From a virus: a DNA stretch of 34,443 bases. Positions 77 to 17,288 of this stretch are shown here, piece after piece. Position 1 is the first letter of the stretch, and the number at the start of each line of letters is the position of its first letter. The stretch is from the IMG/VR virus record IMGVR_UViG_3300031972_002136, positions 1-34,443 of that record; one strand, 5' to 3'. The notes beneath the pieces are model-generated. The model did not search any database and had not been told where the DNA came from. It saw only the letters and a program-made list of their open reading frames with translations. The position numbers were made by a program, and so were the translations under genes.

Positions 77-940
77 GTTTCGCACTGGTACATATTTCGA
101 GGACTGCAACACTCTTCAATGTTGAACCACAAAACCGTGATGTTTCGCACTGGTACATATTTCGAGGACTGCAACACTATATCTTAATATGCACCTCGAC
201 AGCATAAGTTTCGCACTGGCACATATTTAGAGGACTGCAACACGAGTCCAGCGTCTAAACGAAAATGCGCCCAGTTTCGCACTGGTACTAATTTTGAGGA
301 CTGCAACACGCAAAGCTATTGGCGTCCTGCTTGGGCGTGGTTTCGCACTGGTACTAATTTAGAGGACTGCAACACAAGAGTTCACCTATCACGTTTCGGT
401 GAGTGTTTCGCACTGGTGAAGATTTCGAGGACTGCAACACTTTGAGTTTCAAAAGTTTTCAAAACAGATGTTTCGCACTGGTACTAATTTAGAGGACTGC
501 AACACGGTTAATCGAGAAGACCTATGAGGTCTGGGGTTTCGCACTGGGTACAATTTCGAGGACTGCAACACTCCCCAATAGTTCTATCGGTAAAAAAGTT
601 TTACACTAATACAGATTTAGAGGACTGCGACACTAATGTTCATGATGCGAATGATAACAACCAGTTTCGCACTGGGTACAATTTAGAGGACTGCAACACT
701 AGGGATTACACCTTCGCAAGTTTCGCACTGGTACTAATTTTGAGGACTACAACACTCGGCTGGAGGATGAGTTAGTGAAATGCTTGTTTCGCACTGGTAC
801 TAATTTAGAGGACTGCAACACGACTATGCCTTGGATTGTTTCGCTTACTTCGTTTCGCACTGGTGTAAATTTTTAGGACTGCAACACTAATAGCCATGTC
901 TCTAGTGAGTGCTAGTCGTTTCGCACTCGGTACAATTTCG

Positions 941-1018
941 AGGACTGCAACACCATGAAAGATTTGATCGTTTTTTGGACAAGTTTCGCACTGGTACATA
1001 TTTCGAGGACTGCAACAC
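941..1018 (+). repeat. 78-bp direct repeat inside the array (copy 1): duplicated spacer unit
   Basis: Bases 941-1018 are identical to 1203-1280, an offset of 262 bp or four repeat-spacer units. The block covers the last 13 bases of one repeat, a whole 29-bp spacer and the complete next repeat. The repeats on the left of the two blocks differ in their variable middle, and the spacers on the right differ. This points to a local duplication or gene conversion and not to two independent acquisitions. Confidence 0.9.
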
Positions 1019-1202
1019 CCCCACGAATCGTAAACCGAAACGCCCATGTTTCGCACTGGTACTAATTTTGAGGACTACAACACATGGAGTTATCTGCTAC
1101 CGAGACGCCTGTCGTTTCGCACTGGTACTAATTTAGAGGACTACAACACGAGGTCACAGTCTACGATTCATTTGGTAAAGTTTCGCACTGATAGCAATTT
1201 AA

Positions 1203-1280
1203 AGGACTGCAACACCATGAAAGATTTGATCGTTTTTTGGACAAGTTTCGCACTGGTACATATTTCGAGGACTGCAACAC
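1203..1280 (+). repeat. 78-bp direct repeat inside the array (copy 2)
   Basis: Second copy of the block at 941-1018, including the duplicate spacer 1216-1244. It sits next to the decayed end of the array. Confidence 0.9.
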
Positions 1281-1426
1281 TCATCGCCCATCAGCACTAC
1301 ACGGACATAGTTTGATTTTTAAGGACTGCGACACGGATTGGGTGAAGGATTAGCTTTACACTGGTAACAATTTAAAGGGCTACAACACATACCACTTCAC
1401 CGCTTATATTTGAAGGACTGCAACAT

Positions 1427-1668: not shown

Positions 1669-3171
1669 ATGAAAACTAAAATCAAAGAAGAAACTCTTCC
1701 TGTAAAATATCGCCTTCGTCCCAATAAAAAAGGCAAAAAATATTTAAACCAATGCTTTGGTAATACTCGCTTTATTTATAATTGGCTTTTAGCTTTTCAG
1801 AATGATTATTATGAAGCAGTATCCAAATACTCTAAAGAGCAAAACATTGATTATTTAAGCTCTTTACCTAAAGATACAGAAGATCAGCAAAAATTTTACG
1901 CTTCTGAGTTTAAACGCTTGCGCGACGAATTAATTCTACCCTACGACAAAGGGGTAGAAATCTTGAAGTCAATACGCCCCCAAATCGACGAACTAGAAAT
2001 GGAAAGGTGTCTTCTTAAAAAAGTCAAAGACGAAAAAACCAAAAAAATGGTTGAAGCTATCCCCAAGCAAGCCAATAAAATGATAGCTATCGTTAACGCA
2101 AAAAGGCAAATCAAATTTTTAAGAGAAGAGATTCCTTGGCTTAAAGAAACCGCCAGTGAACCATATTATCATACAGCTTTAAATTTAGACGATGCGTGGA
2201 AAGCGTTTTTTGATAAACGCCAAAGCGATACAGGTAAACCATCGTTTAAAGGCAGATGGGCAAAGCAATCTTGCACTTTTGACAAAGTTAAAGTTGATTT
2301 TGAAAATAACGCCGTTACATTCCCTCGCTTAAAGAAGGCACCGCAAAAATTCAGAGCTCATAGAGTAATAGACGGCGAAGCGAAAACAGCAACCGTCGAA
2401 CGCACCACAACAGGTAAGTTTTTTATTACTATAAATTTTAGGCAAAGCGTGCCTTTTCCTGAGCCCCCAAACAAAGTGACTGCCGAAAAAACTTTAGGCA
2501 TTGACTTAGGAGTAGGAGATAACTATCTTACTAAAGCGACTGGAAAATCTGAGGATAATGGTGAAATTATTGATAATCCTAGATTTTTTAAATTAATGTT
2601 TAATAAGAAAAAACGCTTAGATAGAAGCATGAGTAGGAAAAAGCAAGGAGGCAAAAATTGGCTTAAAGCTAAGAATAAATGCGACAAGCTTTCCGAAAAG
2701 CTTGCAAATTTAAGAGATAATTTTCAACATCAAATATCTCATAAAATTACTAATGATGATAACTATTCTCATATAGTAATGGAGTCTCTTGACATAAAGC
2801 AAATGTCAGCGAAGAAACAAGCTATAAAAAACAAAGACGGCTCATATGCTAAAAATGGCCAAGGGTTAAAGAGATTGCAAAATCGCGCCACTTTAGACGC
2901 TTCATTAGGAGCTCTCAAAGACAAAATTAAATACAAGTCTCACAGAAGAGGCAAGTTGTTTACTCAAGTAGATAAGTACTTTCCTTCTACCCAGCTTTGC
3001 CACTCTTGTGGTTATAAGAACGAAAACTTAGCGGTATCAACCAAAAAGTTTAAATGCGGAGGCTGCGACATGACTCTCCATAGAGATGTTAATTCTTGCA
3101 AGAACTTGGTTAAAGAAGGCGTAAGAATGCTTAACCCCACTACAAAGAATAAAAAATCAAAAGTAAAATGA
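1669..3171 (+). CDS. TnpB/Cas12-like RNA-guided nuclease, compact (500 aa)
   Basis: The N-terminus follows the TnpB pattern (KYRLRPNKKGKKYLNQCFG, then TRFIYNWLL at 33-41). The RuvC-like nuclease is intact: D279 in GIDLG, E372 in IVMESLD, and D473 in LHRDVNS. A four-Cys zinc finger lies between the last two motifs (C444, C447, C463, C466). Residues 45-157 hold a charged, helical-looking segment about 70 residues longer than in short IS200/IS605 TnpB proteins, which accounts for the length of 500 against about 350-450. The start is ATG 1669, just after the structured RNA candidate. The stop overlaps the next gene in ATGA. No TnpA, IS end or second transposase gene is visible. The preceding same-strand CRISPR array makes a miniature type V (V-U or Cas12f-like) effector the best reading; a domesticated TnpB acting with its own omegaRNA is the alternative. 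No gene symbol is given because the subtype cannot be fixed by eye. Confidence 0.85.
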   Translation: MKTKIKEETLPVKYRLRPNKKGKKYLNQCFGNTRFIYNWLLAFQNDYYEAVSKYSKEQNIDYLSSLPKDTEDQQKFYASEFKRLRDELILPYDKGVEILKSIRPQIDELEMERCLLKKVKDEKTKKMVEAIPKQANKMIAIVNAKRQIKFLREEIPWLKETASEPYYHTALNLDDAWKAFFDKRQSDTGKPSFKGRWAKQSCTFDKVKVDFENNAVTFPRLKKAPQKFRAHRVIDGEAKTATVERTTTGKFFITINFRQSVPFPEPPNKVTAEKTLGIDLGVGDNYLTKATGKSEDNGEIIDNPRFFKLMFNKKKRLDRSMSRKKQGGKNWLKAKNKCDKLSEKLANLRDNFQHQISHKITNDDNYSHIVMESLDIKQMSAKKQAIKNKDGSYAKNGQGLKRLQNRATLDASLGALKDKIKYKSHRRGKLFTQVDKYFPSTQLCHSCGYKNENLAVSTKKFKCGGCDMTLHRDVNSCKNLVKEGVRMLNPTTKNKKSKVK

Positions 3172-4037
3172 TAGGTATTTTAGGTGCATCTGGATATATA
3201 GGTCATTGCTTTTCAGAAGAGCTAGTAAAGCAAGAAATTTATTTTAGAGAGTTCTCTAGGAGCAAACATGATTATTACGATCTAGAATATTTAATTCACT
3301 TAATTCACAGCAATGAAATTAAAACATTAATTAATTGCGCTGGTTATACAGGTAAACCAAATGTAGACACCTGTGAGTACAATAAAGATGAATGTTACGA
3401 AGCGAATGTTGAATTAGCCAAAACCGTTTCAACAGCTTGCGCTTTAACAGACACAAAACTGATGCACATCTCTTCTGGGTGTATTTACAGCGGGGATAAA
3501 GATGGAAAAGGGTTTACAGAAGAAGACCCACCCAACTTTCATTCGGGGTCAAACCCAAAGGGGAGTTTTTACAGTGGTACAAAAGCGGTTGCTGAATCAG
3601 TAGTTGGTAACTCTTGGGAGAAAACTTATATCCCAAGATTAAGAATACCTTTTGACGAAGAAGACAGCCCAAGAAATTACTTATCTAAACTTCAAAAATA
3701 TGATAAGTTATTAGACGCTGTTAATTCGGTGAGTCACAAAAGAGAGTTTGTTCAAGCTTGTATTCATTTAATACAAAAAGAATGTGATTACGGTATTTAT
3801 AACATTGTAAATACTAACCCCGTCAATACAAAACAAGTAGCTGAATTATTAAAAGAATATAAATTAATTGATTCCTATGGTATTTTAAGCGAGGAAGAGT
3901 TTTATAAGAATGTTGATGTAAAAGCCCCAAGATCAAATTGTGTTTTAGATAACTCTAAAATTATTGACTCTGGCTTCGATATTAGAGATAGCATTGATGC
4001 GATCAGAGACTCCTTGGAGGGCTGGAAAGGTGAGTAA
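3168..4037 (+). CDS. RmlD-like NAD(P)-dependent sugar reductase (SDR)
   Basis: This 289-residue extended short-chain dehydrogenase has a nucleotide-binding GASGYIG at residues 4-10, NCAGYTG in the middle of the Rossmann fold, SSGCIYSGDKDG after it, and the catalytic YxxxK as YSGTK. The pattern fits dTDP-4-dehydrorhamnose reductases and related NDP-sugar reductases, which reduce a 4-keto sugar nucleotide in the cytoplasm. Substrate cannot be told from sequence alone. An RmlB-like dehydratase is encoded further down the same operon, so the two could act in sequence. The start codon overlaps the nuclease gene's stop (ATGA), implying translational coupling. The end overlaps the next gene's GTG start by 8 bases. 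Confidence 0.75.
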   Translation: MIGILGASGYIGHCFSEELVKQEIYFREFSRSKHDYYDLEYLIHLIHSNEIKTLINCAGYTGKPNVDTCEYNKDECYEANVELAKTVSTACALTDTKLMHISSGCIYSGDKDGKGFTEEDPPNFHSGSNPKGSFYSGTKAVAESVVGNSWEKTYIPRLRIPFDEEDSPRNYLSKLQKYDKLLDAVNSVSHKREFVQACIHLIQKECDYGIYNIVNTNPVNTKQVAELLKEYKLIDSYGILSEEEFYKNVDVKAPRSNCVLDNSKIIDSGFDIRDSIDAIRDSLEGWKGE

Positions 4038-4761
4038 GGATGTTACGGTAGTATTAAACGGTTTTAGAAGACCTCACGCTTTAGAAGCTCAAATAGAGGC
4101 TATTAAAAGGCAAACAGTTACGCCCACGAGCGTAATGTTTTGGCAAAACGGGGCAACACAAGAATGCCCTTTCGATTACAATTTACTTAATAGCTGCATA
4201 CTAAGTATAAACAATCAGAACTTTGGAGTATGGGCTAGATTCGCTTACGCTTTAAATGCTGAGACAGAATATGTATGCGTATTCGACGATGACACCATAG
4301 CGGGCTCAAAATGGATCGAGAACTGCTTAAATACTATCGAAGAGTATAACGGACTACTCGGTACAAACGGCGTAATATTTAACGACCTAGAATATCAAAA
4401 TTATACCCAACACGGGTGGGCAAAGCCAAATGAGAAAACAGAACAAGTTGATATAGTTGGGCACAGTTGGTTTTTTAAAAGAGAATGGCTTGGTGCTTTT
4501 TGGAGTGAAGCTCCTTTACCCAAAAGTAAAATTTGCGGTGAGGATATGTACTTTTCGTATGCGATACAAAAACATTTAGGGCTATCTACTTATGTGCCTC
4601 CTCATCCAAAAGATGATTTAGAAATGTGGGGATCAAACCCAGAGTTTGCATATCGATTTGGAGTGGATAAGAATGCAATTTCGGTAAATTATCACGGAAC
4701 TCATTTCGGTGACGCTTTGAAAGACACAGTGGGAAAAGGGTTTAAATTAATAAATATTTAA
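4030..4761 (+). CDS. Family 2-like (GT-A) glycosyltransferase
   Basis: I place the start at GTG 4030, nine bases after GGAGG (4016-4020); an upstream ATG at 3964 would lie deep inside the previous gene and add a non-homologous leader. The 243-residue protein begins SKDVTVVLNGFRRP, typical of GT2 enzymes. It has a metal-binding DDD in CVFDDDTIAGSKW and a later acidic GEDMYFSY that matches the ED region of GT2 catalytic sites. It probably transfers a sugar from an NDP-sugar to a glycan in the cytoplasm. No membrane segments are seen. Donor and acceptor are unknown. Confidence 0.75.
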   Translation: MSKDVTVVLNGFRRPHALEAQIEAIKRQTVTPTSVMFWQNGATQECPFDYNLLNSCILSINNQNFGVWARFAYALNAETEYVCVFDDDTIAGSKWIENCLNTIEEYNGLLGTNGVIFNDLEYQNYTQHGWAKPNEKTEQVDIVGHSWFFKREWLGAFWSEAPLPKSKICGEDMYFSYAIQKHLGLSTYVPPHPKDDLEMWGSNPEFAYRFGVDKNAISVNYHGTHFGDALKDTVGKGFKLINI

Positions 4762-5756
4762 TGAAAATTTTAATCGCATTTGGTACCAGACCTGAATGGA
4801 TAAAAATAAAGCCATTATTCAATGCTTTTGAAAAATCTGGAATAACTTATAATAGTTTATTTACTGGTCAGCATGTTGACTTAATACAAGAAAATGAATT
4901 TGATTATGAGATTAGCATTCCTGAAGATAACCATAACAGGTTAAATGAAATAATAGCTAACATACTTGTTAGTGATGTAGAATGGGAAGACTTTGACTAC
5001 GTTTTAGTTCAGGGCGATACGGCGTCAGCTTATGCGGTGGCTTTAGCGGCTTACAACAGGAAGGTCAAAGTGATTCATTTAGAAGCGGGGCTTCGTTCTT
5101 ACGATTTGGACAATCCTTTTCCAGAAGAAGCTTACAGGCAAATGATATCCAGAATAGCAACCGTAAACCTTTGTCCAACCCCAGAAAATTCTGAAGGTCT
5201 AAAAGAAGAAAAAGTAAGCGGGTCAATCACTACAGTTGGAAACACTGTTCTAGATAATTTACTCAACGTAAGCTCTTATTACGGCGAAACTGTTTTAGTG
5301 ACAATGCACAGAAGAGAAAACCATGATAGTTTACCAGAGTGGTTTCAAGAGGTATCAAAACTCGCAGAACAACACAGAACTTTACAATTTAAAATACCTT
5401 TACATCCAAACCCAAGAGTTCAAGAGTGTAGGCAATATTTAAAAAACATTCAAGTACTTGAACCCCTTTCGTATGATCAAATGATCAAAGAAATAGCTAA
5501 TTGCAAACTTATAATTAGCGACAGCGGAGGAATTCAAGAAGAAGCTTCCTTTCTAAACAAAAAAGTAATAGTATGCAGAAAGACTACGGAGAGGAAAGAA
5601 AGTATAGGGGTTCACAGTTTTATGTGTCCAACTCCATCGGATTTAAATAAAATATTTAATGATTTAGTTTATGATTATCAAGTAGACGCTGAATGCCCTT
5701 ACGGAGATGGTAAAGCTTCGGAAAACGTCGTGAAAAGTTTAAAGTTTTTTGATTAA
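4761..5756 (+). CDS. wecB: UDP-N-acetylglucosamine 2-epimerase (non-hydrolysing, WecB-like)
   Basis: The 331-residue protein carries the family signatures in order: FGTRPEWIK near the start, GQHVDL, VQGDTASAYA, HLEAGLRSYD, PFPEEAYR, TVGNTVLDNL, MHRRENHDS, HPNPRVQE and SDSGGIQEEAS. These residues line the UDP-sugar site of the GT-B-like epimerase fold, which interconverts UDP-GlcNAc and UDP-ManNAc. At 331 residues it is slightly shorter than bacterial WecB (about 370). The start overlaps the previous stop by one base (TAATG), the usual spacing in this operon. Of the carbohydrate genes here, this is one of the two most secure assignments. Confidence 0.9.
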   Translation: MKILIAFGTRPEWIKIKPLFNAFEKSGITYNSLFTGQHVDLIQENEFDYEISIPEDNHNRLNEIIANILVSDVEWEDFDYVLVQGDTASAYAVALAAYNRKVKVIHLEAGLRSYDLDNPFPEEAYRQMISRIATVNLCPTPENSEGLKEEKVSGSITTVGNTVLDNLLNVSSYYGETVLVTMHRRENHDSLPEWFQEVSKLAEQHRTLQFKIPLHPNPRVQECRQYLKNIQVLEPLSYDQMIKEIANCKLIISDSGGIQEEASFLNKKVIVCRKTTERKESIGVHSFMCPTPSDLNKIFNDLVYDYQVDAECPYGDGKASENVVKSLKFFD

Positions 5757-6691
5757 TGAATGTTATAGCTATAACAATTTATAACAAGCCTGATCTATTG
5801 TATCTCTATCTAGAGCAATTAGAAAAATCTGGAGAGCTCAAAGATTACAAGTTGAGACTACACACCGAAGAGGGTTACGACCCAGAGGAAAATGTCGTTA
5901 TTGAAGACTTTAAAAAAAGGAACCCTGATGTAGACACCAAGTTATATATAAAAAGAAAAATAAATTGTCCGCTTACTGGGTTTCATAACATCTTGAGCTC
6001 CTATACGATGTCTGCGATTGAAGCAGATGAATTTGTAATAATAGGTGAAGAAGATATGCTCCCCACTGAGGACTATCTAAGATTCAACAGAGTATGTTAT
6101 GAAAAGTACTTATCTAAGTATGATAGAATATTTGCAATAGCCCACAAAAGAAGACCAGAGGTTGAGCAGCAGGGATATGGAGATGTTTTAATGGGTGACT
6201 ACCAATTGACTTCTCCTTCATGTATATCGGTAAAAGCTATAGATAATTATATAACACCTTATCTTCAAGACGAGTTATTTTTCTCAAATCCGATAGCTTA
6301 CAATATGCAAAGATTTAACAATTTAAGAATAGCTCCTCACGATCATACTCATCACGATGGAGCTTTAGAAAGGATGATGCTTGCCAATAATTTATTTGCA
6401 TTAAAACCAGATCAAGCAAGGTCTATGCACGTTGGTTTATCTGGTATTTTTTGCAGAGGCAACCCGCCGCAAGGCACTCTTGAGGAAAGGGTTGCTCAGT
6501 GGAGGGAATTAATAAAAGATGGCGATATGCTTAGGTCTTTGTCAACTATCCCATCAGATATAGTGGTGACTAATCCTCAAGGGCCATATTGGGAGGATTT
6601 AAAGTTGGACACTGAAAGAAATCTTTGTAAAGCTAGTACTTGGTTTTATGATGACGAAAATCAATTTAGAGATTACATAAAAAATAAATGA
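5756..6691 (+). CDS. Probable GT-A fold glycosyltransferase
   Basis: The 311-residue protein starts MNVIAITIYNKPDLLYLYLEQL, the opening of GT-A enzymes that walk along a Rossmann-like sheet. It has FVIIGEEDMLP, where EED takes the place of the metal-binding DxD. Later come APHDHTHHDGALERMM and MHVGLSGIF, which could form the acceptor side. No signal peptide or membrane helix is visible. It overlaps both neighbours by one to four bases. The nearest general resemblance is to GT2/GNT-I type enzymes; the linkage is unknown and the assignment rests on motif pattern only. Confidence 0.55.
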   Translation: MNVIAITIYNKPDLLYLYLEQLEKSGELKDYKLRLHTEEGYDPEENVVIEDFKKRNPDVDTKLYIKRKINCPLTGFHNILSSYTMSAIEADEFVIIGEEDMLPTEDYLRFNRVCYEKYLSKYDRIFAIAHKRRPEVEQQGYGDVLMGDYQLTSPSCISVKAIDNYITPYLQDELFFSNPIAYNMQRFNNLRIAPHDHTHHDGALERMMLANNLFALKPDQARSMHVGLSGIFCRGNPPQGTLEERVAQWRELIKDGDMLRSLSTIPSDIVVTNPQGPYWEDLKLDTERNLCKASTWFYDDENQFRDYIKNK

Positions 6692-7473
6692 AAACATTTG
6701 AAGGTGATTTATTAAAATTTATTTCTCTTGTTGAGAATAATGAGAACTTTGCTTACTCTAGGTTTTCGGATGGTGAATTATTTATTCTGGAAAACCAAAA
6801 ATTAGTGTTAGCTGAAAATCATTCGTTTTTTAAAGGTCAAAGACATTTTGGCAGATACCCAAAAGAAGAGCAAAAAGAATTTTTACCTGAAGAGCATTCG
6901 TTTTACAGGCAAAAACTTCTAGAGTCTTTACAGTTCAAAAAAAATAATTACTTCAAAGGTATCACTTGTCCGTGTTGCGGTGGAGACCAAGCGGTTCAGT
7001 ACATGAAAGATTTACACGGCGGCGAAGATGACTCTTTAACTTGGGCAAATATATTTTGCAATTCTAATTATAAGTTATTTGTAGAAAAAATGATGCCCGC
7101 TTTATCTAAAAAGAAAATAGTTTTAGTTTGTAATGAAATTGCTGATATCTCTGGCTTACCACTTGAAGTAGTTAAAGACTTTAGAGTTGGCTCTAATTGT
7201 TTAATAAATGATTACGGTCTCGTAGAAGAAGTAAGACAGTGGATAGAAGATAATAAAATTAAAAATCATGTATTTTTATTTTCCGCATCCACATTAAGTA
7301 ATTATCTAGCTCACCAGTTGTATGAATTTGAAGATGAAAATACGTATTTGGATATAGGTTCCACGATTAGCCCGTATTTAAAAATGGAAGGATGGAAGCA
7401 TAGTAGAGATTATTTAGTTAGATATTGGATGAACACGCCGACTCAATTTGGAGACAGAGTATGCGCTTGGTAG
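6688..7473 (+). CDS. GT-D type glycosyltransferase (DUF1792-like)
   Basis: The segment NFAYSRFSDGELFIL near the N-terminus matches the RFGDGE signature of the DUF1792 / GT-D family. YLDIGSTISPYL and the C-terminal HSRDYLVRYW fit the rest of the fold. GT-D enzymes were first characterised as the third sugar transferase of streptococcal serine-rich adhesin glycosylation. This copy has a CPCCGG segment in the middle (about residue 95) that could bind a metal or be structural. The start ATG overlaps the previous stop in ATGA. A surface glycan or a virion protein could be the acceptor; that is inference. Confidence 0.7.
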   Translation: MKTFEGDLLKFISLVENNENFAYSRFSDGELFILENQKLVLAENHSFFKGQRHFGRYPKEEQKEFLPEEHSFYRQKLLESLQFKKNNYFKGITCPCCGGDQAVQYMKDLHGGEDDSLTWANIFCNSNYKLFVEKMMPALSKKKIVLVCNEIADISGLPLEVVKDFRVGSNCLINDYGLVEEVRQWIEDNKIKNHVFLFSASTLSNYLAHQLYEFEDENTYLDIGSTISPYLKMEGWKHSRDYLVRYWMNTPTQFGDRVCAW

Positions 7474-7859
7474 ATTGTACAGAAGAATACTGGGACTTTG
7501 TGAGGATATTGAGAAATGATCCTAGAGTTCAAGATGGGTTTATAGAAAAAGCTAACATATCTCCACAACAACAAAAAGAATACATGAAAAAGTATTCACA
7601 TGGATACAAGATTGCAATACACAAAAATAAACCCGTTGGTTTTATAGGCGTGGTTGACGACGATATTAGAGTTTGCACGTCGCCCGATTCTCAAGGTAAA
7701 GGAGTAGGAAAGTTTATGATTAATGAAATAATTAAAATTTTTCCCAACGCCAAAGCTAAAATCAAAATAGATAATAAAGCTAGTCTTAAAGCATTTGAAT
7801 CTTGTGGTTTCAGAAAGAAATATTATATTTTAGAGAATCATGGTTCACAACCCTTATAA
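7461..7859 (+). CDS. GNAT family N-acetyltransferase
   Basis: The start is set at ATG 7461, seven bases after GGAG (7450-7453). The earlier in-frame ATG at 7425 lies further inside the preceding gene and adds residues unlike the family. The 132-residue protein has the acetyl-CoA pyrophosphate loop SPDSQGKGVGKFM (the Q/RxxGxG motif A). It is followed by KIKIDNKASLKAFESCGF, the usual motif B strand-helix of RimJ/RimL-like acetyltransferases. In this setting N-acetylation of an amino sugar is a reasonable guess, especially with a DegT-like protein encoded next, but a protein substrate is also possible. It overlaps the previous gene by 13 bases. Confidence 0.8.
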   Translation: MRLVDCTEEYWDFVRILRNDPRVQDGFIEKANISPQQQKEYMKKYSHGYKIAIHKNKPVGFIGVVDDDIRVCTSPDSQGKGVGKFMINEIIKIFPNAKAKIKIDNKASLKAFESCGFRKKYYILENHGSQPL

Positions 7860-8466
7860 AATAGTAAGGCAATTTGAAGAAGAAATTGCAGCTTATACAG
7901 GAGCGCCATATGCGGTCTCTGTGGATAGCTGTACTAATGCATTGTTTTTAATCTGTAAATATTTAAACGTAAAAGAAGTTACTATACCTAGCAAAACTTA
8001 TCTTTCCGTTCCCCATTCAATCATTCATTCGGGAGCAGAGGTGGTTTTCGACAAAAAGCCAAAAACAAACCATTGGCAGGGTATTTACCAGCTAAAGCCC
8101 TATCCCGTATACGATGCAGCAAAACGTTTAACTAGTGACATGTATATTAAGGGCTCTTATATGGCGCTTTCTTTTCACATCAAGAAGCAGCTACCTATTG
8201 GTAAGGGCGGTATGATTTTAACTGACAACGAAGAAGCTGTAGAGTGGTTTAAAAAAGCAAGATATGAAGGCAGAAGCGAAAAGTTTTACAAAGAAGATGA
8301 TATAACCTTTTGTGGTTGGAATATGTACATGACCCCGCAACAAGCCTCAACAGGTTTAGCTCTATTACAAAATTACCCTAAACATAATAAAGATTTAGAA
8401 GAAATAAATGGCTACAGGGATTTAACGGAGTTTACAGTATTTAAAAATAATAAAACAATATTTTAA
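7840..8466 (+). CDS. Short DegT/DnrJ/EryC1-like aminotransferase
   Basis: The protein opens with PYKIVRQFEEEIAAYTGAPYAVSVDSCTNALFL, the PLP-phosphate region of the DegT sugar aminotransferase family. It continues to MALSFHIKKQLPIGKGGMILTDN, where K116 sits at the Schiff-base lysine position. At 208 residues it stops well short of the usual 360-400. Most of the C-terminal small domain that closes the active site is missing. It ends cleanly and the next gene starts two bases later, so this looks like a shortened gene and not a fresh frameshift. Whether it still transaminates a keto-sugar is open. It overlaps the acetyltransferase gene by 20 bases. Confidence 0.7.
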   Translation: MVHNPYKIVRQFEEEIAAYTGAPYAVSVDSCTNALFLICKYLNVKEVTIPSKTYLSVPHSIIHSGAEVVFDKKPKTNHWQGIYQLKPYPVYDAAKRLTSDMYIKGSYMALSFHIKKQLPIGKGGMILTDNEEAVEWFKKARYEGRSEKFYKEDDITFCGWNMYMTPQQASTGLALLQNYPKHNKDLEEINGYRDLTEFTVFKNNKTIF

Positions 8467-8467
8467 A

Positions 8468-9178
8468 GTGAAAGTAGCTTTATGTTTACATGGTAAATTT
8501 GATTCTTTAACGGACGAAAGTTCTAAAGGGGCTGACGGCTTTAATCATTTAAAAGCTAGAGTTTTTTCTCAGTGTTCTCCAGATGTTTTTGTTCATTCGT
8601 GGGATGAGAACGAAAAAGATAATATATTAAATTTATATAGCCCTAAAAACTATTTAATAGAACCTCAGATAGATTTCTCAGATGAGACTAAGCATTTAGA
8701 TTTTATTAAAAATCCGCCCAGAACACCTAACACAATTTTATCTCATTTTTATTCAGTTTCGCAAAGTATAAAATTAGCTTGTGATTATGGCGATTATGAC
8801 ATTGTAATAAAATCTAGATTTGATATAGGTAGGATAAACAGAAAAACTTCTGGCCCTCACAATGCAAACAACCCCTACCCAGTTCAATGCATCACCTTTA
8901 ATCCTGATTTAGACATGGATTTATTACACATGGCTAACTGGCAATATTTAGATTGCGATGGCCCAGCGGATATGTGGTTTTACTCTAACCAAAAGAACAT
9001 GAGCCAATTGCGTGATTTATATGATTTTGCTATAAGATGTTTTGACTTGAACGGTGAATACGCTAAAAAAATAAAAGACTTGAACGATTTACCAAATGCT
9101 ATAAAATTATATAAAGCTTTTTATATTGAGAAAAAACTCTGGTCAAAGAAAAACCTTATTGAAACAATCTATGAGTGA
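8468..9178 (+). CDS. Putative glycosyltransferase, MKVALCLHGKF type
   Basis: The start is GTG 8468, two bases after the previous stop; the first residues MKVALCLHGKFDSLTDES already form the first strand of the fold, so no earlier start is needed. Other visible landmarks are SPDVFVHSWDENE, ILSHFYSVSQSIKLA and DIVIKSRFDIG, the last placing an acidic residue where such enzymes bind the nucleotide sugar. Similar proteins occur in phage and bacterial surface-glycan clusters. The length is 236 residues with no membrane segment. The function is by pattern only. Confidence 0.5.
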   Translation: MKVALCLHGKFDSLTDESSKGADGFNHLKARVFSQCSPDVFVHSWDENEKDNILNLYSPKNYLIEPQIDFSDETKHLDFIKNPPRTPNTILSHFYSVSQSIKLACDYGDYDIVIKSRFDIGRINRKTSGPHNANNPYPVQCITFNPDLDMDLLHMANWQYLDCDGPADMWFYSNQKNMSQLRDLYDFAIRCFDLNGEYAKKIKDLNDLPNAIKLYKAFYIEKKLWSKKNLIETIYE

Positions 9179-9863
9179 AAATTTAGAATCATACAGAGCG
9201 AGCCTAGAAAGTTTTTACAAAAGCGGTACATCCAATCATTTGGAGCATAATGAAAACCCAGATTATTTTGATGTTTTATTAAAGGAGGTAACCTCTGCCC
9301 CTAAAAACTGGGAAGATAAAGTAGCTTTAGATTTTGGATGCGGAAAAGGTCGTAATGTTGTTAATTTATTTGATCTAGCAAAGTGGAAAAAAGTAGATGG
9401 GGTTGATATATCTAAAGATAATATAAATTATTGTAATGAAAATTATAAAGATTTAAAATCGACTTTCTACAAAAATAGTGGAAGTGATTTATCTGACATC
9501 TCATCAAATTTTTATGATTTTGTTATGTCAACCATTGTGTTTCAGCACATACCAGTAAGAGAGGTAAGAGTTAATCTTAAAAAAGAAATCTACAGGACTT
9601 TAAAGTGTGGCGGAATTTTTTCTTTTCAAATGGGTCATGGCAAACAAATATTAAAAAGCAAAAACCATTCAAGTTACCTAGATAACGCTTACTCCGCTAA
9701 CGGCTCTAATGGAATGTGCGACGTTCAAATCACACCTGAAACAGAAAAAGATTTGATAAAAGATTTAGAAGAGATAGGTTTTGAAAATATAGAATTTTTT
9801 GTAAAACCCTCGTTTAGCGATGACTCTCATGAGAATTGGATTTATGTAAGTTGTAAAAAATAA
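9171..9863 (+). CDS. Class I SAM-dependent methyltransferase
   Basis: The start is placed at ATG 9171, in the overlap ATGAGTGA with the preceding stop; an in-frame ATG 45 bases upstream would translate the end of the other gene. The 230-residue protein has motif I as VALDFGCGKGRN (about residues 51-62), the acidic ribose-binding residue in VDGVDISKDN, and FVMSTIVFQHI as the post-motif II strand. FSFQMGH follows further on. This is a canonical Rossmann methyltransferase. Given the neighbours, O-methylation of a sugar is likely, but nothing in the sequence fixes the substrate. Confidence 0.8.
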   Translation: MSENLESYRASLESFYKSGTSNHLEHNENPDYFDVLLKEVTSAPKNWEDKVALDFGCGKGRNVVNLFDLAKWKKVDGVDISKDNINYCNENYKDLKSTFYKNSGSDLSDISSNFYDFVMSTIVFQHIPVREVRVNLKKEIYRTLKCGGIFSFQMGHGKQILKSKNHSSYLDNAYSANGSNGMCDVQITPETEKDLIKDLEEIGFENIEFFVKPSFSDDSHENWIYVSCKK

Positions 9864-10585
9864 TGTTTTCGTTTTTCATACACACTCATTCGGATTGTAA
9901 AGATTTATGGCCGTGTTTTTTTGGTCAATTAAAAGAACACTTTGAGCAGTTCAACAAATACGTTTGCGTTGATAAAAATGATGAGCTATTAAGCGGCTGT
10001 AAAACTTTCTTATACGAAGAGCAAACTCTTTACTCTGAAAGATTGTTAGATTCTTTAAAGCGCTTAAAAGAAGAAATCATACTCTTTACCCACGAAGATA
10101 TGATTCTTTACGGTAAGCCAGATTATAAAACTTTAAACGAGTACGTAAATTTAATTAAAAATGGAAAAGCTAATTTTATAAAATTATTAAAATGTAAGAA
10201 CCCTAATGAGTCTTTTATTCAATCGGAAGAACACATTAATCTAGTTGTTTGCCCCGCTCAATACTCTTTCACAGTTCAACCCACCCTTTGCAAAGCTTCG
10301 GATTTAGTAGAGCTTGTTGAGACGCTACCATCTCATGTTAATATTTGGGATTTGGAAAGAGCTATACCTCAAATTTTTCAATTACCAGCTTTTAAAAATA
10401 AAAAATGCTTCATGTCTAGCTTCCCTAATGAAAGCCAAAGAGGTATTGCCCATTGGAACTCGTCTGTTTACCCTCATGGGAATATGATTTTTAAAGGTAA
10501 ATGGACCTACAGTGAATACAAAAAAGAAATAGATATTCTCTGTGAAAAATATTCAATACAAAAAGAAACGAGGGGTGTTATTTGA
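9863..10585 (+). CDS. Uncharacterised protein, possible GT-A glycosyltransferase
   Basis: The 240-residue protein starts MFSFFIHTHSDCKDLWPCFFGQLKEHF and has ILFTHEDMILYG, an HED acidic cluster where GT-A enzymes carry DxD. The rest (SFTVQPTLCKASDLVELVETLP, then HVNIWDLERAIP) resembles phage and algal-virus proteins in glycan clusters. I cannot name a family securely. It has no signal peptide or membrane helix. It is packed between two genes with one- and four-base overlaps, so it is clearly part of the operon. Confidence 0.45.
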   Translation: MFSFFIHTHSDCKDLWPCFFGQLKEHFEQFNKYVCVDKNDELLSGCKTFLYEEQTLYSERLLDSLKRLKEEIILFTHEDMILYGKPDYKTLNEYVNLIKNGKANFIKLLKCKNPNESFIQSEEHINLVVCPAQYSFTVQPTLCKASDLVELVETLPSHVNIWDLERAIPQIFQLPAFKNKKCFMSSFPNESQRGIAHWNSSVYPHGNMIFKGKWTYSEYKKEIDILCEKYSIQKETRGVI

Positions 10586-11943
10586 AATTAGTAATTTTTG
10601 ACTTAGATGGAGTCTTGGTGGACGCAAGAGAGTTGCACTATCAAGCTTTAAACGAAGCTTTATTTTCTATAAGCGATGAGTTTGTTATCTCTAGAGAGGA
10701 GCACTTATCTACTTTTGATGGGCTATCCACTTCTAAAAAATTAGATATTCTTCAAGATAAAAAAGGACTAAAAGAACATTACAAAGATATAATTTGGAAG
10801 CTAAAACAAGAAAAGACTTTATCTATTATAGATAAATTTACACCTGATGAAAAAATTAAAAATATTTTAAAATATTTAAAAGAAAAAGGATACCTAACCG
10901 CTTGCTGTACCAATTCAATTAGGGAAACTGCTAAACTACAATTAATTAGAAAAGGTTTCATGGAGCATCTAGATTTTTTTCTATCTAATCAAGATGTAAT
11001 AAAATGCAAACCTCATCCTGAGATATACATGAAGTGTATGTTAATGGCGGGGGTTTCTCCAAAAGAAACTTTAATTGTAGAGGATTCTCATCATGGGAGG
11101 CAAGCGGCTCTAGAAAGCGGTGCCAATTTATGCGCTGTTAGAGATTGCCAAGATTTAAGCTTGGAAAAAATTCAAAATCATCTTAACGTCGCTTCAGAAA
11201 ATAAAATAAAACCTAAATGGCAAGGAGGAAATATGAATGTACTAATACCAATGGCTGGGGCAGGTAGTCGGTTTGAGAAAGCTGGCTACACTTTTCCTAA
11301 GCCTCTTATTGAGGTAAACGGAAAGCCGATGATTCAAGTTGTCGTAGAGAATTTAAATATCGACGCTAAACATATTTTTATTGTGCAAAAAGAGCACTAC
11401 GAAAAATATAATTTAAAGTATCTTCTAAATTTAATTACAGAAAACAATTGTGAAATTGTTCAAGTGGACGGTATGACCGAGGGAGCAGCTTGTACAACCC
11501 TACTAGCTAAAGAGTTGATAAATAACAACGAGCCTTTAGTTATGGCGAATTCGGATCAATTTGTAGAATGGGACTCTAACGAGTTTATGTACTCTATGAC
11601 CGCAGATAATATAGACGCGGGTATTCTAACGTTTAACTCCACTCACCCAAAATGGTCTTTTGCTAAGTTAAATGAAGATGGGTTTGTAAGCGAGGTAGCC
11701 GAAAAAAAGCCAATTTCTGATATAGCTACTGTCGGGGTATACTATTGGAACAAAGGGTCTGACTACGTAAAGTATGCGGAGCAAATGATTTCAAAAGACG
11801 TAAGAGTTAATAACGAATTTTATGTTTGCCCCGTCTTTAACGAAGCGATTCAGGATGATAAAAAAGTAAAAGTATTCCCGATTGAAAAAATGTGGGGATT
11901 AGGAACGCCAGAGGATTTGGATATTTTTTTAAAAGATAAATGA
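10582..11943 (+). CDS. HAD phosphatase fused to sugar nucleotidyltransferase
   Basis: Translation begins at TTG 10582 within TTGA, overlapping the previous stop; HAD motif I follows immediately (FDLDGVLVD, D7 and D9), so a later start would destroy the enzyme. Residues 1 to about 205 form a HAD phosphatase, with CCTNS as motif II, the KCKPHPE lysine and EDSHHG as motif IV. From residue 218 there is a nucleotidyltransferase: PMAGAGSRFEKAGYTFPKPLIEVNGKPMI and later MANSDQFVEW. The second half would activate a sugar-1-phosphate; the HAD half would remove phosphate from a sugar phosphate or a by-product. The enzyme could supply the RmlB-like and RmlD-like proteins in place of RmlA. A strong internal ribosome site precedes residue 218. 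Confidence 0.8.
   Translation: MKLVIFDLDGVLVDARELHYQALNEALFSISDEFVISREEHLSTFDGLSTSKKLDILQDKKGLKEHYKDIIWKLKQEKTLSIIDKFTPDEKIKNILKYLKEKGYLTACCTNSIRETAKLQLIRKGFMEHLDFFLSNQDVIKCKPHPEIYMKCMLMAGVSPKETLIVEDSHHGRQAALESGANLCAVRDCQDLSLEKIQNHLNVASENKIKPKWQGGNMNVLIPMAGAGSRFEKAGYTFPKPLIEVNGKPMIQVVVENLNIDAKHIFIVQKEHYEKYNLKYLLNLITENNCEIVQVDGMTEGAACTTLLAKELINNNEPLVMANSDQFVEWDSNEFMYSMTADNIDAGILTFNSTHPKWSFAKLNEDGFVSEVAEKKPISDIATVGVYYWNKGSDYVKYAEQMISKDVRVNNEFYVCPVFNEAIQDDKKVKVFPIEKMWGLGTPEDLDIFLKDK
11233..11943 (+). CDS. Internal in-frame start: stand-alone nucleotidyltransferase domain
   Basis: ATG 11233 is codon 218 of the fused gene and falls exactly at the first strand of the nucleotidyltransferase (MNVLIPMAGAGSRF). 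A full AAGGAGG lies just upstream (11223-11229), the best Shine-Dalgarno sequence in the operon. This suggests that a free 236-residue nucleotidyltransferase is made beside the fusion, or that the fusion arose recently from two genes whose second start signal survives. The two explanations cannot be separated from sequence. Confidence 0.55.
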   Translation: MNVLIPMAGAGSRFEKAGYTFPKPLIEVNGKPMIQVVVENLNIDAKHIFIVQKEHYEKYNLKYLLNLITENNCEIVQVDGMTEGAACTTLLAKELINNNEPLVMANSDQFVEWDSNEFMYSMTADNIDAGILTFNSTHPKWSFAKLNEDGFVSEVAEKKPISDIATVGVYYWNKGSDYVKYAEQMISKDVRVNNEFYVCPVFNEAIQDDKKVKVFPIEKMWGLGTPEDLDIFLKDK

Positions 11944-12362
11944 TTCTTATTTCTCATAGAGGTAATTTGGAGGGGCCAAATAAAAATGAAAACAGCCCCG
12001 ATTATATAAAGCAAGCTTTAAGCAAGGGGTATGAATGTGAAATAGATGTATGGTATGATAATGGTTTATACTATTTAGGCCATGATGAACCTGTTTACCC
12101 AATCGATATTAATTTTCTTGAAGACGATAGGTTGTGGTGCCACGCTAAAAACTTAAAAGCATTAGAGCAAATGCTTAAAGAAAACGTGCACTGCTTCTGG
12201 CATCAAGAGGATAGCTGCACTTTAACTAGCAAAAACATAATTTGGTCTCACCCTAATGTAGAGCCACCTCGAAATAGCATAGCCGTATTACCAGAGATAA
12301 AAAATCAAGACACTAAAAACTGTTATGGGTTATGCTCTGACTATATAGAAAATTATTTATAG
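11940..12362 (+). CDS. Short glycerophosphodiester phosphodiesterase-like protein
   Basis: The N-terminus ILISHRGNLEGPNKNENSPDYI, then CEIDVWYDNGLYYLGHDEP, gives the GDPD-type sequence of HRG, ExD and an HD pair that binds the metal and phosphodiester. At 140 residues it is far shorter than a full TIM-barrel GDPD (about 240), a form that recurs next to phage and bacterial sugar clusters. It could process a glycerophosphate or sugar phosphodiester. It starts in an ATGA overlap with the preceding gene and ends four bases before the next. Confidence 0.6.
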   Translation: MILISHRGNLEGPNKNENSPDYIKQALSKGYECEIDVWYDNGLYYLGHDEPVYPIDINFLEDDRLWCHAKNLKALEQMLKENVHCFWHQEDSCTLTSKNIIWSHPNVEPPRNSIAVLPEIKNQDTKNCYGLCSDYIENYL

Positions 12363-12365
12363 CAA

Positions 12366-13445
12366 ATGTTTAAAACCACCGACAATAAAACATATTACGC
12401 AAGAACTGGTACAAAGAAATTTGACGCTATATTTGATTATTTAAAAAATAAGAATTTTAATTCTTTGTTAGACGTAGGATGTAATAACGCTATATGCTCC
12501 TATAGAATCCAAAAACAATTAAATAAAGACGTTGTAGGCACTGATTTTTCTGACGACTTGAAACTGCCAGATGACTATAATTTTATTAAAGAAGATGTTT
12601 CTAATAGCTGTGCAGTTAGGGAGGCTGACATAATTCTTTTTTTGAGTTTATATCATCATATGTTGGGTTGTTACGGGCTGAATAAAGCGGATGATATATT
12701 TTTTAAATTATTATTAAGTTGCAATGAATTAATTTTTGACACTGGAAATCTTAGCGAGACTGGTTATTCAGGCACCCCTTGGTATAAAGTTTTAGAAAAG
12801 CATTTTGATAATGAAAAAGATTTACTAGATCATTTTGGCGTTCCTTATGAAAAAATAACCTCTTGGAGTTCAAGTTCAGGAAATGGAGAAAGAAACGTAG
12901 TAGTTTTCAAGAAAGAGGATTTTGATAAAAGCGTAAAAGTGAAAAATATTTTTCAACGTAGAAATTGCGGCTTTGGCGCTTCAGGAAGACATTACCCTCT
13001 TGAACTCGTAGACCATTTAAAACAAGACGATGAATTTAAAAAATTTTTACAAAAAAATACGTCTCCTACTAATGGTTGCGAGCAAAGCGTTTTTGATGGA
13101 GCTCTTTATTTTAAATTAGAGATAGCGGGGAAAAGTTTTTTTTCTAAAAAAAGAATAAAAGAAGAAAAGCAAAACATTGCAGAAAAAAAAGAATATAGAA
13201 CCACAAAAACTATTTATAATCTAGCTCAGAAAGATGAAATTTTAGCAGAGTTAAAGAGTCAATTAATAACTTTTTATGGTTTTTCTGAAACTTACGGTTT
13301 AATTTTTGAATGGTTGGAGAATTTTGAGTATACCTGTAGTACAAACATAAGAATAGATAGTCAATACAATGAAGTTATTGAACTTAAAGATGTAGACGCG
13401 GTAATTCACAATGGAAAAGTGAAAATATTTGATTTCGAGCGTTAG
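12366..13445 (+). CDS. Methyltransferase-like domain joined to a C-terminal kinase-like segment
   Basis: Residues 1 to about 180 form a class I methyltransferase: LLDVGCNNAICSYRIQ as motif I, VVGTDFS as the acidic strand end, and FLSLYHHML in the middle. From about 195 (FQRRNCGFGASGRHYP) the sequence changes to a lysine-rich region that ends DVDAVIHNGKVKIFDFER, reminiscent of the C-lobe metal loop of small kinase-like folds but without a recognisable HxD catalytic loop. The two-domain reading is moderately secure; the kinase-like label is only a resemblance. This is the last gene before a 47-base gap that ends the first overlapping run. Confidence 0.55.
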   Translation: MFKTTDNKTYYARTGTKKFDAIFDYLKNKNFNSLLDVGCNNAICSYRIQKQLNKDVVGTDFSDDLKLPDDYNFIKEDVSNSCAVREADIILFLSLYHHMLGCYGLNKADDIFFKLLLSCNELIFDTGNLSETGYSGTPWYKVLEKHFDNEKDLLDHFGVPYEKITSWSSSSGNGERNVVVFKKEDFDKSVKVKNIFQRRNCGFGASGRHYPLELVDHLKQDDEFKKFLQKNTSPTNGCEQSVFDGALYFKLEIAGKSFFSKKRIKEEKQNIAEKKEYRTTKTIYNLAQKDEILAELKSQLITFYGFSETYGLIFEWLENFEYTCSTNIRIDSQYNEVIELKDVDAVIHNGKVKIFDFER

Positions 13446-13492
13446 TAATAAAACTACTTGAATAAGCGTCAAAAAAGTTTTACATTTTAAAC

Positions 13493-14431
13493 ATGAAGCT
13501 ACTGGTAACAGGTGGTTGCGGTTTTATAGGCTCCAACTTTATAAAGCATGTTTTAGATAAAGAGCAGTTAGACTCTATTCTAAATATAGACTCCTTGAGC
13601 TACGCTGGGAGCCTGTCAAATACCGCCGCTTTTGAAACTCACAAAAAGTATAAATTTAAAAACGTTGACATATTTTTCCCTAATCAAGTTAGCGATGCTT
13701 TTCGTAGATTTAAAGCGACTCACGTAGTGCATTTCGCTGCCGAAACCCATGTTGATAATTCGATAAAATGTTCTTTAAAATTTTTAGAAACAAACATTAA
13801 TGGCACCCATAATTTAATTAAATCAAGCCTTGCTAGTGGGGTAAAAAGATTTCATCACGTTTCTACAGACGAAGTTTTTGGAAGCCTCGGAGAAAAAGGA
13901 AAGTTTAAAGAAACTACGCCATACGACCCAAGAAACCCCTACTCAGCTTCGAAGGCCGCTTCTGATCATTTAGTTAGAGCTTTCCACCATACGCATGGTT
14001 TACCGACCACAATCTCAAACTGTTCAAATAATTACGGGCCAAACCAACACAAAGAAAAGTTCATCCCAACTATCTTAAACAGTTTAAAAAAGGGCAACAA
14101 AATTCCAGTTTACGGAAATGGCTCAAATGTAAGAGACTGGATTTATGTTGAAGACCACTGTGACGCAATTTGGAAAATTTTAACAAATGGCAAAAACGGT
14201 GAAACATATAACGTTGGATCAAATTGCGAAAAGACTAATTTAGAAGTTATCGAAGAAATCTGCACAGCCCTAAAGCTTGAACCTAGCGCTTGCATAGAAT
14301 TCGTAAAAGATAGAGCGGGGCACGATTTAAGATACGCTATCGATTCAAGAAAAATTAAAAAAGAGTTAAATTGGAAACCTTCACATTCTTTTAAATCGGG
14401 AATTAAAAAAACAATAGCTTACTATGCATGA
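13493..14431 (+). CDS. rmlB: dTDP-glucose 4,6-dehydratase-like enzyme (RmlB)
   Basis: The protein has the NAD-binding GGCGFIGSNF at residues 7-16, HFAAETHVDNSI, the active-site STDEVFGSLG and YSASKAASDHL (YxxxK). SNNYGPNQHKEKFIP, YGNGSNVRDWIYVEDHC and TYNVGSNCEKTN follow. All are hallmarks of RmlB, which turns dTDP-glucose into the 4-keto-6-deoxy sugar. Length 312 is a little below the usual 330-360. It follows a short gap, so it may have its own transcription start, and it overlaps the next gene by 8 bases. With the RmlD-like protein and the nucleotidyltransferase it gives a possible 6-deoxyhexose route, although an RmlC epimerase is not seen. Confidence 0.88.
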   Translation: MKLLVTGGCGFIGSNFIKHVLDKEQLDSILNIDSLSYAGSLSNTAAFETHKKYKFKNVDIFFPNQVSDAFRRFKATHVVHFAAETHVDNSIKCSLKFLETNINGTHNLIKSSLASGVKRFHHVSTDEVFGSLGEKGKFKETTPYDPRNPYSASKAASDHLVRAFHHTHGLPTTISNCSNNYGPNQHKEKFIPTILNSLKKGNKIPVYGNGSNVRDWIYVEDHCDAIWKILTNGKNGETYNVGSNCEKTNLEVIEEICTALKLEPSACIEFVKDRAGHDLRYAIDSRKIKKELNWKPSHSFKSGIKKTIAYYA

Positions 14432-15371
14432 ATCGTTAATACCCGAAATAAAATTCCATATAGACTTCGCCCGATGCACTAAAAAGGGTTATAGCTTTGA
14501 AGGATGGATTTTTCACCAGACCGAAACTATAAGGGGTATTACCTTCAGAGCGGGAACTCTTTCGCAAATGTGTTATCAGTTTATCGATAGACCAGATGTT
14601 AAAAATGTTTATCCCGATTTACAGAATGATTCAGTAGGTTTTAAGTTTGAATTTAATCACAGTAGTGAACATGACGAATTTGAGAGTTTTGAACTTTTAG
14701 CTAAAATAAACGGTCAAGAATTAAAAGTAGGAGATTTAAAAAAGCCAAAAGACTTATCAGAGATAGGTAAAATAAACAACGTTCATCCCAGCGTCATTGC
14801 TGTGGACGATTTTTATAAAAACCCAGATGAAGTTAGAGAATATGCGCTTGGCTTAGATTTTCAATTTAATAAAGAATACCATAAGGGACAAAGAACAAAA
14901 ACAAGAACTTTTTTTGATGGAACAAAAGAGTTTCTTGAAGATACGTTAAAGAAAAAAATCACAGGGTGGGATAATCAACCTCACAATGGAGTATTTCAGT
15001 TTTGTACGGCTCAAGATCAATTAGTTTATCATACAGATTCTCAAACTTATGCTGCGGTAGTATTTCTTACTCCAAACGCACCAGCAGAATGTGGGACAAG
15101 TTTTTTTAAGCATAGGGGTAATGCTCTCAGAAAATATCCTACCTCAAAAGACTGCATGGTTCACAATAAGTCAATAGATGAGTTGTACTGGGATATGTTT
15201 CAAGGAAACTTTTACGATAAAACGCCTTGGGAGGTCGTTGACGTAATTGGAAACGTGTACAACAGAATGGCTATTTGGGACGCTAAACTAGTGCACGCTG
15301 CTACTCAATATTTTGGAGATAAAAAAGAAAACTCAAGATTATTCCATATGTTTTTCTTCGACGCGCAGTGA
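14424..15371 (+). CDS. 2OG-Fe(II) oxygenase-like protein with N-terminal extra domain
   Basis: Residues 1 to about 110 form a beta-rich module (FEGWIFHQTETIRGITFRAG, then DSVGFKFEFNHS) that could bind a ligand. The C-terminal part contains LVYHTDSQTYAAVVFLTP (HxD) and WDAKLVHAATQYFG with NSRLFHMFFFD, which supply the second His and the Arg of the facial-triad oxygenases. The pattern resembles the DUF6445 group. Such enzymes hydroxylate or oxidise a substrate with 2-oxoglutarate and O2. At the end of a sugar operon it might oxidise a glycan or its lipid or peptide carrier, which is inference. The gene is followed by a promoter motif for the next unit. Confidence 0.6.
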   Translation: MHESLIPEIKFHIDFARCTKKGYSFEGWIFHQTETIRGITFRAGTLSQMCYQFIDRPDVKNVYPDLQNDSVGFKFEFNHSSEHDEFESFELLAKINGQELKVGDLKKPKDLSEIGKINNVHPSVIAVDDFYKNPDEVREYALGLDFQFNKEYHKGQRTKTRTFFDGTKEFLEDTLKKKITGWDNQPHNGVFQFCTAQDQLVYHTDSQTYAAVVFLTPNAPAECGTSFFKHRGNALRKYPTSKDCMVHNKSIDELYWDMFQGNFYDKTPWEVVDVIGNVYNRMAIWDAKLVHAATQYFGDKKENSRLFHMFFFDAQ

Positions 15372-15378
15372 TTTTTAA

Positions 15379-15390
15379 GTGTATATTATA
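15379..15390 (+). promoter_or_regulatory. Candidate phage promoter motif (GTGTATATTATA)
   Basis: The motif begins 17 bases before ATG 15396 of phoH in a 24-base gap. It is one of at least seven similar elements (AAGTGTAWWAWA) found close before start codons in the right half of the window. Confidence 0.55.
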
Positions 15391-15395
15391 TTCAC

Positions 15396-16858: not shown

Positions 16859-16909
16859 CCTTGTTACACTAATTAAATAAAAAAAATATTTTATTTTTTT
16901 GTTTTTTTG

Positions 16910-16919
16910 CTGTATTATA
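16910..16919 (+). promoter_or_regulatory. Candidate phage promoter motif (CTGTATTATA)
   Basis: The motif lies about 15 bases before ATG 16925, after an A/T hairpin and T-run (16876-16908). It fits the recurrent GTGTAWWAWA element except for C in the first position. Confidence 0.45.
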
Positions 16920-16924
16920 CAATA

Positions 16925-17284
16925 ATGAATAATTTAAGAGTATATTGTCAGGACTGTGGATGTATGCATTCTTACACCCTGCATAAACCTAATTTTTGCC
17001 AAAGCTGTGGAAGCGCGATGGGCTCTAGTAAACCTCAAGCTCAAAAACGAGAAAGCGCTTTGGAAGAAGAAAATGTAAATGTCAACTTCGATAAAATTAA
17101 TTCATTAGATTTCGAAGCGGAGCATTATAACGCAAGCCCGCAAACTCTTGGATCAATTATGGAGGCTTCTTCAGGTCAAGAAGTTAAAAATAATCAAAGC
17201 TTCAATGAACCGCCGAAAAGGTCAAAACAAGAAATTCTTGAAGAGTTAAAGAAAGAAAGTACAACTCTAAGACCAAACTCTTGA
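16925..17284 (+). CDS. Small zinc-ribbon protein
   Basis: I take ATG 16925 as start; an in-frame TTG 18 bases earlier would place the promoter-like TGTATTATA inside the coding region. The first 33 residues carry C8, C11 (plus C13) and C25, C28 in VYCQDCGCMHSY and NFCQSCGSAMG, a typical zinc ribbon. The remaining 85 residues are acidic and low in hydrophobics, probably disordered (KRESALEEENVNVNFDK). Such proteins can bind RNA polymerase or nucleic acid. It is encoded just before the sigma-like factor, four bases away, so a joint role in transcription is possible. No named family is claimed. Confidence 0.7.
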   Translation: MNNLRVYCQDCGCMHSYTLHKPNFCQSCGSAMGSSKPQAQKRESALEEENVNVNFDKINSLDFEAEHYNASPQTLGSIMEASSGQEVKNNQSFNEPPKRSKQEILEELKKESTTLRPNS

Positions 17285-17288
17285 CATA

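Follow-up and report, generated by a model that had tools for sequence, protein, structure and literature searches.

Constant ends and a variable middle in the repeats of a phage-encoded CRISPR array, and dispersed handle units in related phages

The repeats of a CRISPR array near the start of a 34,443-bp virus record have near-constant ends and a variable middle. The whole of this record is called the window, and the positions of the array, RNA and effector refer to it. The array probably stores the guides of a type V-U system that the phage encodes and that derives from TnpB; in this system the 3' module of the repeat would be the handle, the middle a sequence-free AU-rich linker and the 5' block an element needed in dense arrays only. 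The system is known here from sequence, and all conclusions about it are sequence-based. The window phage is a marine phage with its own small CRISPR system, and its genes include those for a large terminase, a tubulin-like protein and PhoH, together with a sugar-biosynthesis cluster. The first 3.2 kb, all on the + strand, contain the array (77–1426), a non-coding stretch (1427–1668) and the effector gene (1669–3171).

The CRISPR locus is adjoined by a long series of sugar-nucleotide, glycosyltransferase and sulfotransferase genes (3168–19788). A tubulin/FtsZ-like protein is encoded at 24575–25744; such proteins are found in some large phages, which build a spindle. A collagen-repeat protein (32204–34441) is cut off by the end of the window.

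The records compared with the window are fragments and may be incomplete. G001 (also L002; IMGVR_UViG_3300020471_002216) is a close relative. Its effector is 89% identical to that of the window and its 23-unit array lies at the same position. More distantly related is G002 (IMGVR_UViG_3300020477_000001, 158 kb), with a 72% identical terminase, syntenic structural genes and an effector with 36–39% identity. The fourth related phage, G005 (L074), is represented by a 39-kb fragment from which the effector gene is absent; its terminase is 76% identical to that of the window.

The window array (77–1426, + strand) has the regular direct repeats and the unique spacers of similar length that are typical of CRISPR arrays, with 22 units and spacers mostly of 29–30 nt. 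A very short leader (56–76, + strand) runs from the end of the upstream gene to the first repeat. It contains AGTCCT, the complement of the handle, and this motif is kept in both close relatives. The full 36-nt repeat is present in 19 of the 22 units. It consists of a constant 5' block of 12 nt, variable columns 13–17, a constant ATTT (columns 18–21), variable columns 22–23 and the constant 3' handle AGGACTGCAACAC, with columns 1–12 and 24–36 near-constant. The near-constant ends and variable middle described in the sequence-only reading are borne out, with the refinement that the constant ATTT divides the variable stretch. Nor is entropy spread evenly along the repeat. In the 19 full units, 76% of the column entropy sits in columns 13–23, and the best 11-column entropy window begins at column 13 (permutation p = 0.004). 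Near-identical repeats are usually assumed to be necessary for CRISPR arrays. The 19 full units contain 13 distinct repeats and eight distinct six-base middles: TACTAA (seven units), TACATA (four), GTACAA (three), CACATA, TGAAGA, TACAGA, TGTAAA and TAGCAA. The last three units (1299, 1353 and 1391) are truncated or degenerate, and this tail (1299–1426, + strand) has short spacers and keeps chiefly the repeat's 3' half. A reading of the middles as sigma-70 −10 boxes (TACAAT, TACTAAT) was considered and rejected, since by eye neither the spacing nor the first base is constant.

The arrays of the related phages vary in the same columns. In the G001 array, 70% of the entropy falls within columns 13–23 (p = 0.047). 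The eight-unit array of G002 has the same pattern at a size too small for significance (p = 0.12). The middles in G001 are TGAAGA, TACATA and TACTAA, with long runs of TGAAGA, and its spacers are all different from those of the window except the last. The G002 array repeat consists of GCTTCGCACTGG, then one of the middles TAGCAA, TACTAA and TACAGA, then GGGACTGCAACAC. TACTAA is common to all three arrays, TACATA and TGAAGA to the window and G001, and TAGCAA and TACAGA to the window and G002. No further arrays with this repeat are found in the other viral contigs scanned, and the repeat is absent from the 85,000 cellular genomes searched.

Because related phages share the variable columns and several of the middles, with different spacers, the variation is not decay. 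That the array was once uniform and has been gathering mutations is very improbable. The truncated tail would fit such a history, but only fixed columns vary, they do so from the first repeats on, the alleles recur in other phages and the catalytic residues of the window effector are kept. The possibility, raised with the sequence-only reading, that the window array is just a degraded copy also fails against the non-uniform arrays of G001 and G002.

The almost complete difference in spacers between the window and G001 indicates that a source of new spacers exists or existed. It has a bearing on a further explanation, in which both ends of the repeat are recognised by Cas1–Cas2 from the host or another element and the middle is a spacer between them. 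This explanation is favored by the spacer difference between two such close phages, by a tight length of 29–30 nt as from an integrase ruler and by repeat ends that appear partly inverted by eye (GTnTnGCAnT). However, cas1 (PF01867) was not found in G000, G001 or G002, records that may be incomplete, and these records therefore give no sign of autonomous adaptation. The repeat occurs in none of the cellular genomes, and the covariation of handle and anti-repeat described below is left unexplained. The explanation is accordingly given a low probability.

The alleles are interspersed along the arrays as if at random, which is unlike the outcome of simple copying from the leader-end repeat. One stretch of the window array, made up of the handle, the spacer CATGAAAGATTTGATCGTTTTTTGGACAA and the next repeat (941–1018, + strand), is identical to a second copy at 1203–1280 (+ strand). 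The repeat middles to the left of the two copies differ, and the junction of the duplicated unit falls within the constant 13-nt block; rearrangement through this block thus occurs in the window array. These patterns bear on the suggestion in the sequence-only reading that the variation lowers recombination loss of the array. Under this suggestion, the middles diverge because identical repeats lose spacers by homologous recombination, and the alleles are selected for difference. Breaking the 36-nt identity into blocks of about 13–18 nt or less should reduce recombination. The arrays themselves do not support it. In none of the window, G001 and G002 arrays are repeats that share a middle separated more than by chance, adjacent repeats being no more different than expected; G001 has its long TGAAGA runs, and the window unit was duplicated through the constant block. 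The suggestion is unlikely, and retains some standing because the degenerate repeats of CreTA resisted recombination and eliminated spacer loss in an archaeon (PMC9458426).

Two associations are seen within the arrays. In the window at 274–1149, TACTAA-TG is followed by TACTAA-AG in three of three cases, with different spacers between them (p = 0.004, or 0.047 when corrected for pair choice). In the window at 77–1280 and G001 at 1834–3245 taken together, CG at columns 22–23 is found mostly before 29-nt spacers and other bases before 30-nt spacers (pooled Fisher p = 0.011). Both would fit a reading in which each middle sets a different fate (processing rate, expression or another effector) and is kept by selection across the phage family. 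The few discrete alleles common to phages with effectors only 36–39% identical would fit it too. Against this, columns 13–18 and 22–23 occur in many combinations, both associations are weak and came to light post hoc, and no second effector is seen, which leaves such functional classes improbable.

A conserved structured non-coding RNA (1501–1655, + strand) lies between the array and the effector gene and is a candidate tracrRNA, judging from its folding z-score and from helices with compensatory changes. The stretch 1469–1660 folds far better than shuffled sequence (z = −4.35) and is conserved in G001, and a homologous RNA is present upstream of the G002 effector. The predicted fold, on the + strand, contains hairpins at 1504–1515 and 1522–1536 (GGTTG loop), a hairpin at 1569–1588 with a pseudoknot between CCTC (1575–1578) and GAGG (1591–1594), and a GC-rich 3' hairpin at about 1618–1646. 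The stem of the GGUUG-loop hairpin shows a compensatory change, with CUGUC/GACAG in the window and CGGUG/CACCG in G002. The loop of the later hairpin is able to pair downstream in both phages, as CCUC/GAGG in the window and GAAU/AUUC in G002. Between this hairpin and the 3' hairpin, the window has the sequence AAAGUCCUAG and G002 has AAAGUUCCUAG. The combined RNA motif occurs once per genome in the three effector-bearing genomes, directly upstream of the effector gene, and is absent from the G005 fragment, which has no effector. A search of Rfam gave no match at gathering score.

The candidate tracrRNA includes a predicted anti-repeat, AGTCCT (1606–1611, + strand), complementary to AGGACT of the handle; at the RNA level, AGGACU of the window handle complements AGUCCU. 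On its own, a 6-bp duplex does not stand out significantly from what shuffled repeats give, and the case for pairing therefore rests on covariation, which involves two independent scaffold RNAs. The G002 anti-repeat AGTTCCT (AGUUCCU) matches the dispersed handle AGGAACU, and the array handle AGGGACU pairs with it with one G–U. The cognate pairings of handle and anti-repeat are best, and cross-pairings between the window and G002 are worse. A covarying predicted anti-repeat at a homologous site near the array is consistent with a tracrRNA-dependent type V system. In an extended pairing model, AUUU pairs weakly and columns 22–23 form a small internal loop. Conserved columns would thus be paired or guide-proximal in this model, and variable columns would be unpaired.

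The conserved ends had been proposed to carry functional contacts. This part of the sequence-only reading stands for the 3' end, which is predicted to pair with the tracr-like RNA and covaries with it in G002. The 5' end is constrained, yet it is lost in the tail of the array and in the dispersed units of the relatives. Pairing between the 5' block and the scaffold RNA was considered and rejected, as an 8-bp match in G002 is not conserved in the window or G001. The notion that the middle is always a loop did not hold up. Isolated repeats fold weakly and differently and are nearly unstructured, and in the TGAAGA allele the middle pairs with the 5' block.

The dispersed units are most numerous in G002. 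Between 111170 and 124682, this phage has 41 handle units (GGAACTACAACAC or variants with up to two mismatches), array units included, all on the + strand and most without the 5' block; the dispersed ones stand on either side of the array and farther off in this region. When the whole record is searched with up to two mismatches, 46 handle units are found on one strand and two on the other; shuffled patterns give 1–6. Some units are spaced 31–38 nt apart, which corresponds to guides of about 18–25 nt. Five units (115392, 116267, 122129, 122523 and 124633) are at most 4 nt from the point where a mechanically called open reading frame ends. Several handle units sit directly after stop codons and resemble single dispersed guides. 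One guide at 119951–119995, GGATTCGAACTCACGTCT, looks similar to a tRNA T-arm in its complementary sequence. A wider search for dispersed handles returned 47 contigs, of which G002 was already known, 45 look by eye like repetitive coding sequence and only L074, the G005 fragment, is new. G005 has 19 handle units on one strand (L074 8706–11875), spaced 40–45 and 58–59 nt apart, near a gene homologous to one that adjoins the G002 units. The 11 bases before the handle have a G+C content of 14–30%, compared with 32–40% genome-wide. All sets are AU-rich and differ in sequence, and in the dispersed units of G002 and G005 the G+C content before the handle is below the local background.

One unit is shared between phages. 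G001 and G002 have in common an identical 31-nt stretch, composed of 12 nt of the handle and the 19-nt guide AACATTATGGTATTCCTTA, and the sequences flanking it diverge. The G002 copy lacks the remainder of the spacer and the beginning of the following repeat, which suggests that selection keeps the handle and about 19 nt of guide. As the guide and handle are identical in two phages, the 5' half of the repeat looks dispensable for an installed guide. A broader proposal, possible but less probable than not, is that the phage family keeps a shattered array. Full array units, pared to a 13-nt handle and a guide of about 19 nt, would be scattered on one strand between genes and at gene ends and used in trans by one TnpB-like effector. 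The G002 effector may then be a programmable repressor instead of a nuclease, and the variable middles would be the first step of paring.

In the guide-store reading preferred here, each repeat would consist of two functional modules with a sequence-free linker between them. The 3' one, AGGACUGCAACAC, aided by the preceding AUUU, would act as the crRNA handle, pair through AGGACU with AGUCCU of the RNA between the array and the effector gene and load the effector. It would adjoin a guide with a working length of about 19 nt. The linker (columns 13–17, with 22–23 as a predicted internal loop) would be held to an AU-rich composition and not to a sequence. It would be free to vary because nothing reads its sequence, and its alleles would persist because they are neutral and would be shuffled by recombination through the constant ends. 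The transcript of the array would be cut in the linker, most likely by an RNase of the host that acts on single-stranded RNA. One candidate is RNase E, since by eye each allele contains an RN-WUU-like site, although such a site is common by chance. The 5' block of 12 nt would be needed in dense arrays, for processing or for the insertion of spacers by a trans-acting enzyme, and not for an installed guide. Some observations count against this reading. In dense arrays the 5' block varies as little as the handle, and a dispensable block would be expected to do so only if it had another role. The alleles of the linker are old and discrete instead of forming a cloud of single mutations, a pattern that does not follow in any obvious way from simple neutrality.

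The effector gene (1669–3171, + strand) encodes a TnpB-like or type V-U Cas12 protein of 500 amino acids, in which the RuvC residues D279, E372 and D473 and a zinc ribbon are present. It matches OrfB_IS605 and Cas12f1-like_TNB in Pfam, Cas12u4 (185 bits) and Cas12f (175 bits) in PADLOC, and guided_TnpB in NCBIfam. The end of the array is approximately 240 bp upstream of the gene. This adjacency of an array and a TnpB/Cas12-like RuvC effector is the arrangement of type V-U and is the same in G001. The protein falls below the threshold of the curated type V-U2 (C2c8) model, scoring 104 bits against NF038192, which has a cut-off of 350. Its closest protein family by profile is NF040570. The closest solved natural relatives are ISDra2-type TnpB chains, with an AI-designed nuclease scoring slightly higher, and the sequence is much closer to solved TnpB than to Cas12f1. 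The predicted structure has a mean pLDDT of 39 and is too poor to use. No relatives of the effector were found in cellular genomes. TnpA (Y1 transposase, PF01797) is absent from the four records, and the locus does not have the makeup of an IS605 transposon. In the G002 effector (L029 1631–3139), the third RuvC aspartate is replaced, with HERNFN for HRDVN. This effector is possibly nuclease-inactive, which would fit binding without cutting.

Searches for spacer targets gave no match among related phages and nothing convincing in 50,697 phage records, and the duplicated spacer of the window matched no viral contig. The guide shared by G001 and G002 complements a Shine–Dalgarno sequence plus ATG in a 276-kb phage (L043 3549–3567). 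This match may be a coincidence, one exact 19-nt match being close to chance.

The window system shares features with several known systems. Subtype V-F (Cas12f) with a tracrRNA also has a compact TnpB-like effector, and the PADLOC Cas12f matches and the predicted repeat:anti-repeat pairing beside a pseudoknotted RNA are in line with it; the window effector is nearer in sequence to TnpB than to solved Cas12f. The window RNA may also resemble the guide RNA of Cas12f. TnpB of IS200/IS605 elements, which works with an omega RNA, is the closest by profile (NF040570) and by solved structures (ISDra2 TnpB). Unlike in those elements, the guides here are in a multi-spacer array, a separate scaffold RNA lies upstream of the gene and TnpA is missing from the records. 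The cyanophage vB_AphaS-CL131 carries a type V-U2 system with a TnpB-like effector adjoining an array of 36-nt repeats and, like the window phage, is without adaptation genes. There the repeats are uniform, apart from one C-to-T change in two of them, and the authors found no tracrRNA (PMC6293099), whereas the window has fixed-column variation and a tracr-like RNA. CreTA also involves degenerate repeats outside a standard array that are stable against recombination. There, one or two such units guard a toxin with Cascade (PMC9458426), whereas the present system has dozens of units and a single-protein effector, with no toxin known. Mini-CRISPR arrays and single repeat units of viruses likewise are virus-carried guides, often against other viruses. 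They reuse host Cas proteins and host repeats (reviewed in PMC11656645), whereas the window phage encodes its own effector, and the repeat occurs in no cellular genome searched.

Huge phages encode V-U systems (PMC7162821), and about 50 associations of TnpB with arrays or adaptation modules have arisen (PMC12669027). The window system belongs among the phage-encoded TnpB-like effectors with arrays that are already known. A family-wide hypervariable linker within the array, together with dispersed handle units, is undescribed in the literature covered, some of it available in part; most subscription journals fall outside this coverage, and the statement is not proof of novelty.

Taken together, the array, its relatives and the dispersed units point to the bases that matter in a type V-U repeat and to those that do not. 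Most surprising of all are the dispersed guide units. If they are working guides, the phage can spread single guides at gene ends, which would be a new way of encoding RNA-guided control. They would also offer a natural template for multi-guide constructs that are compact and resistant to recombination.
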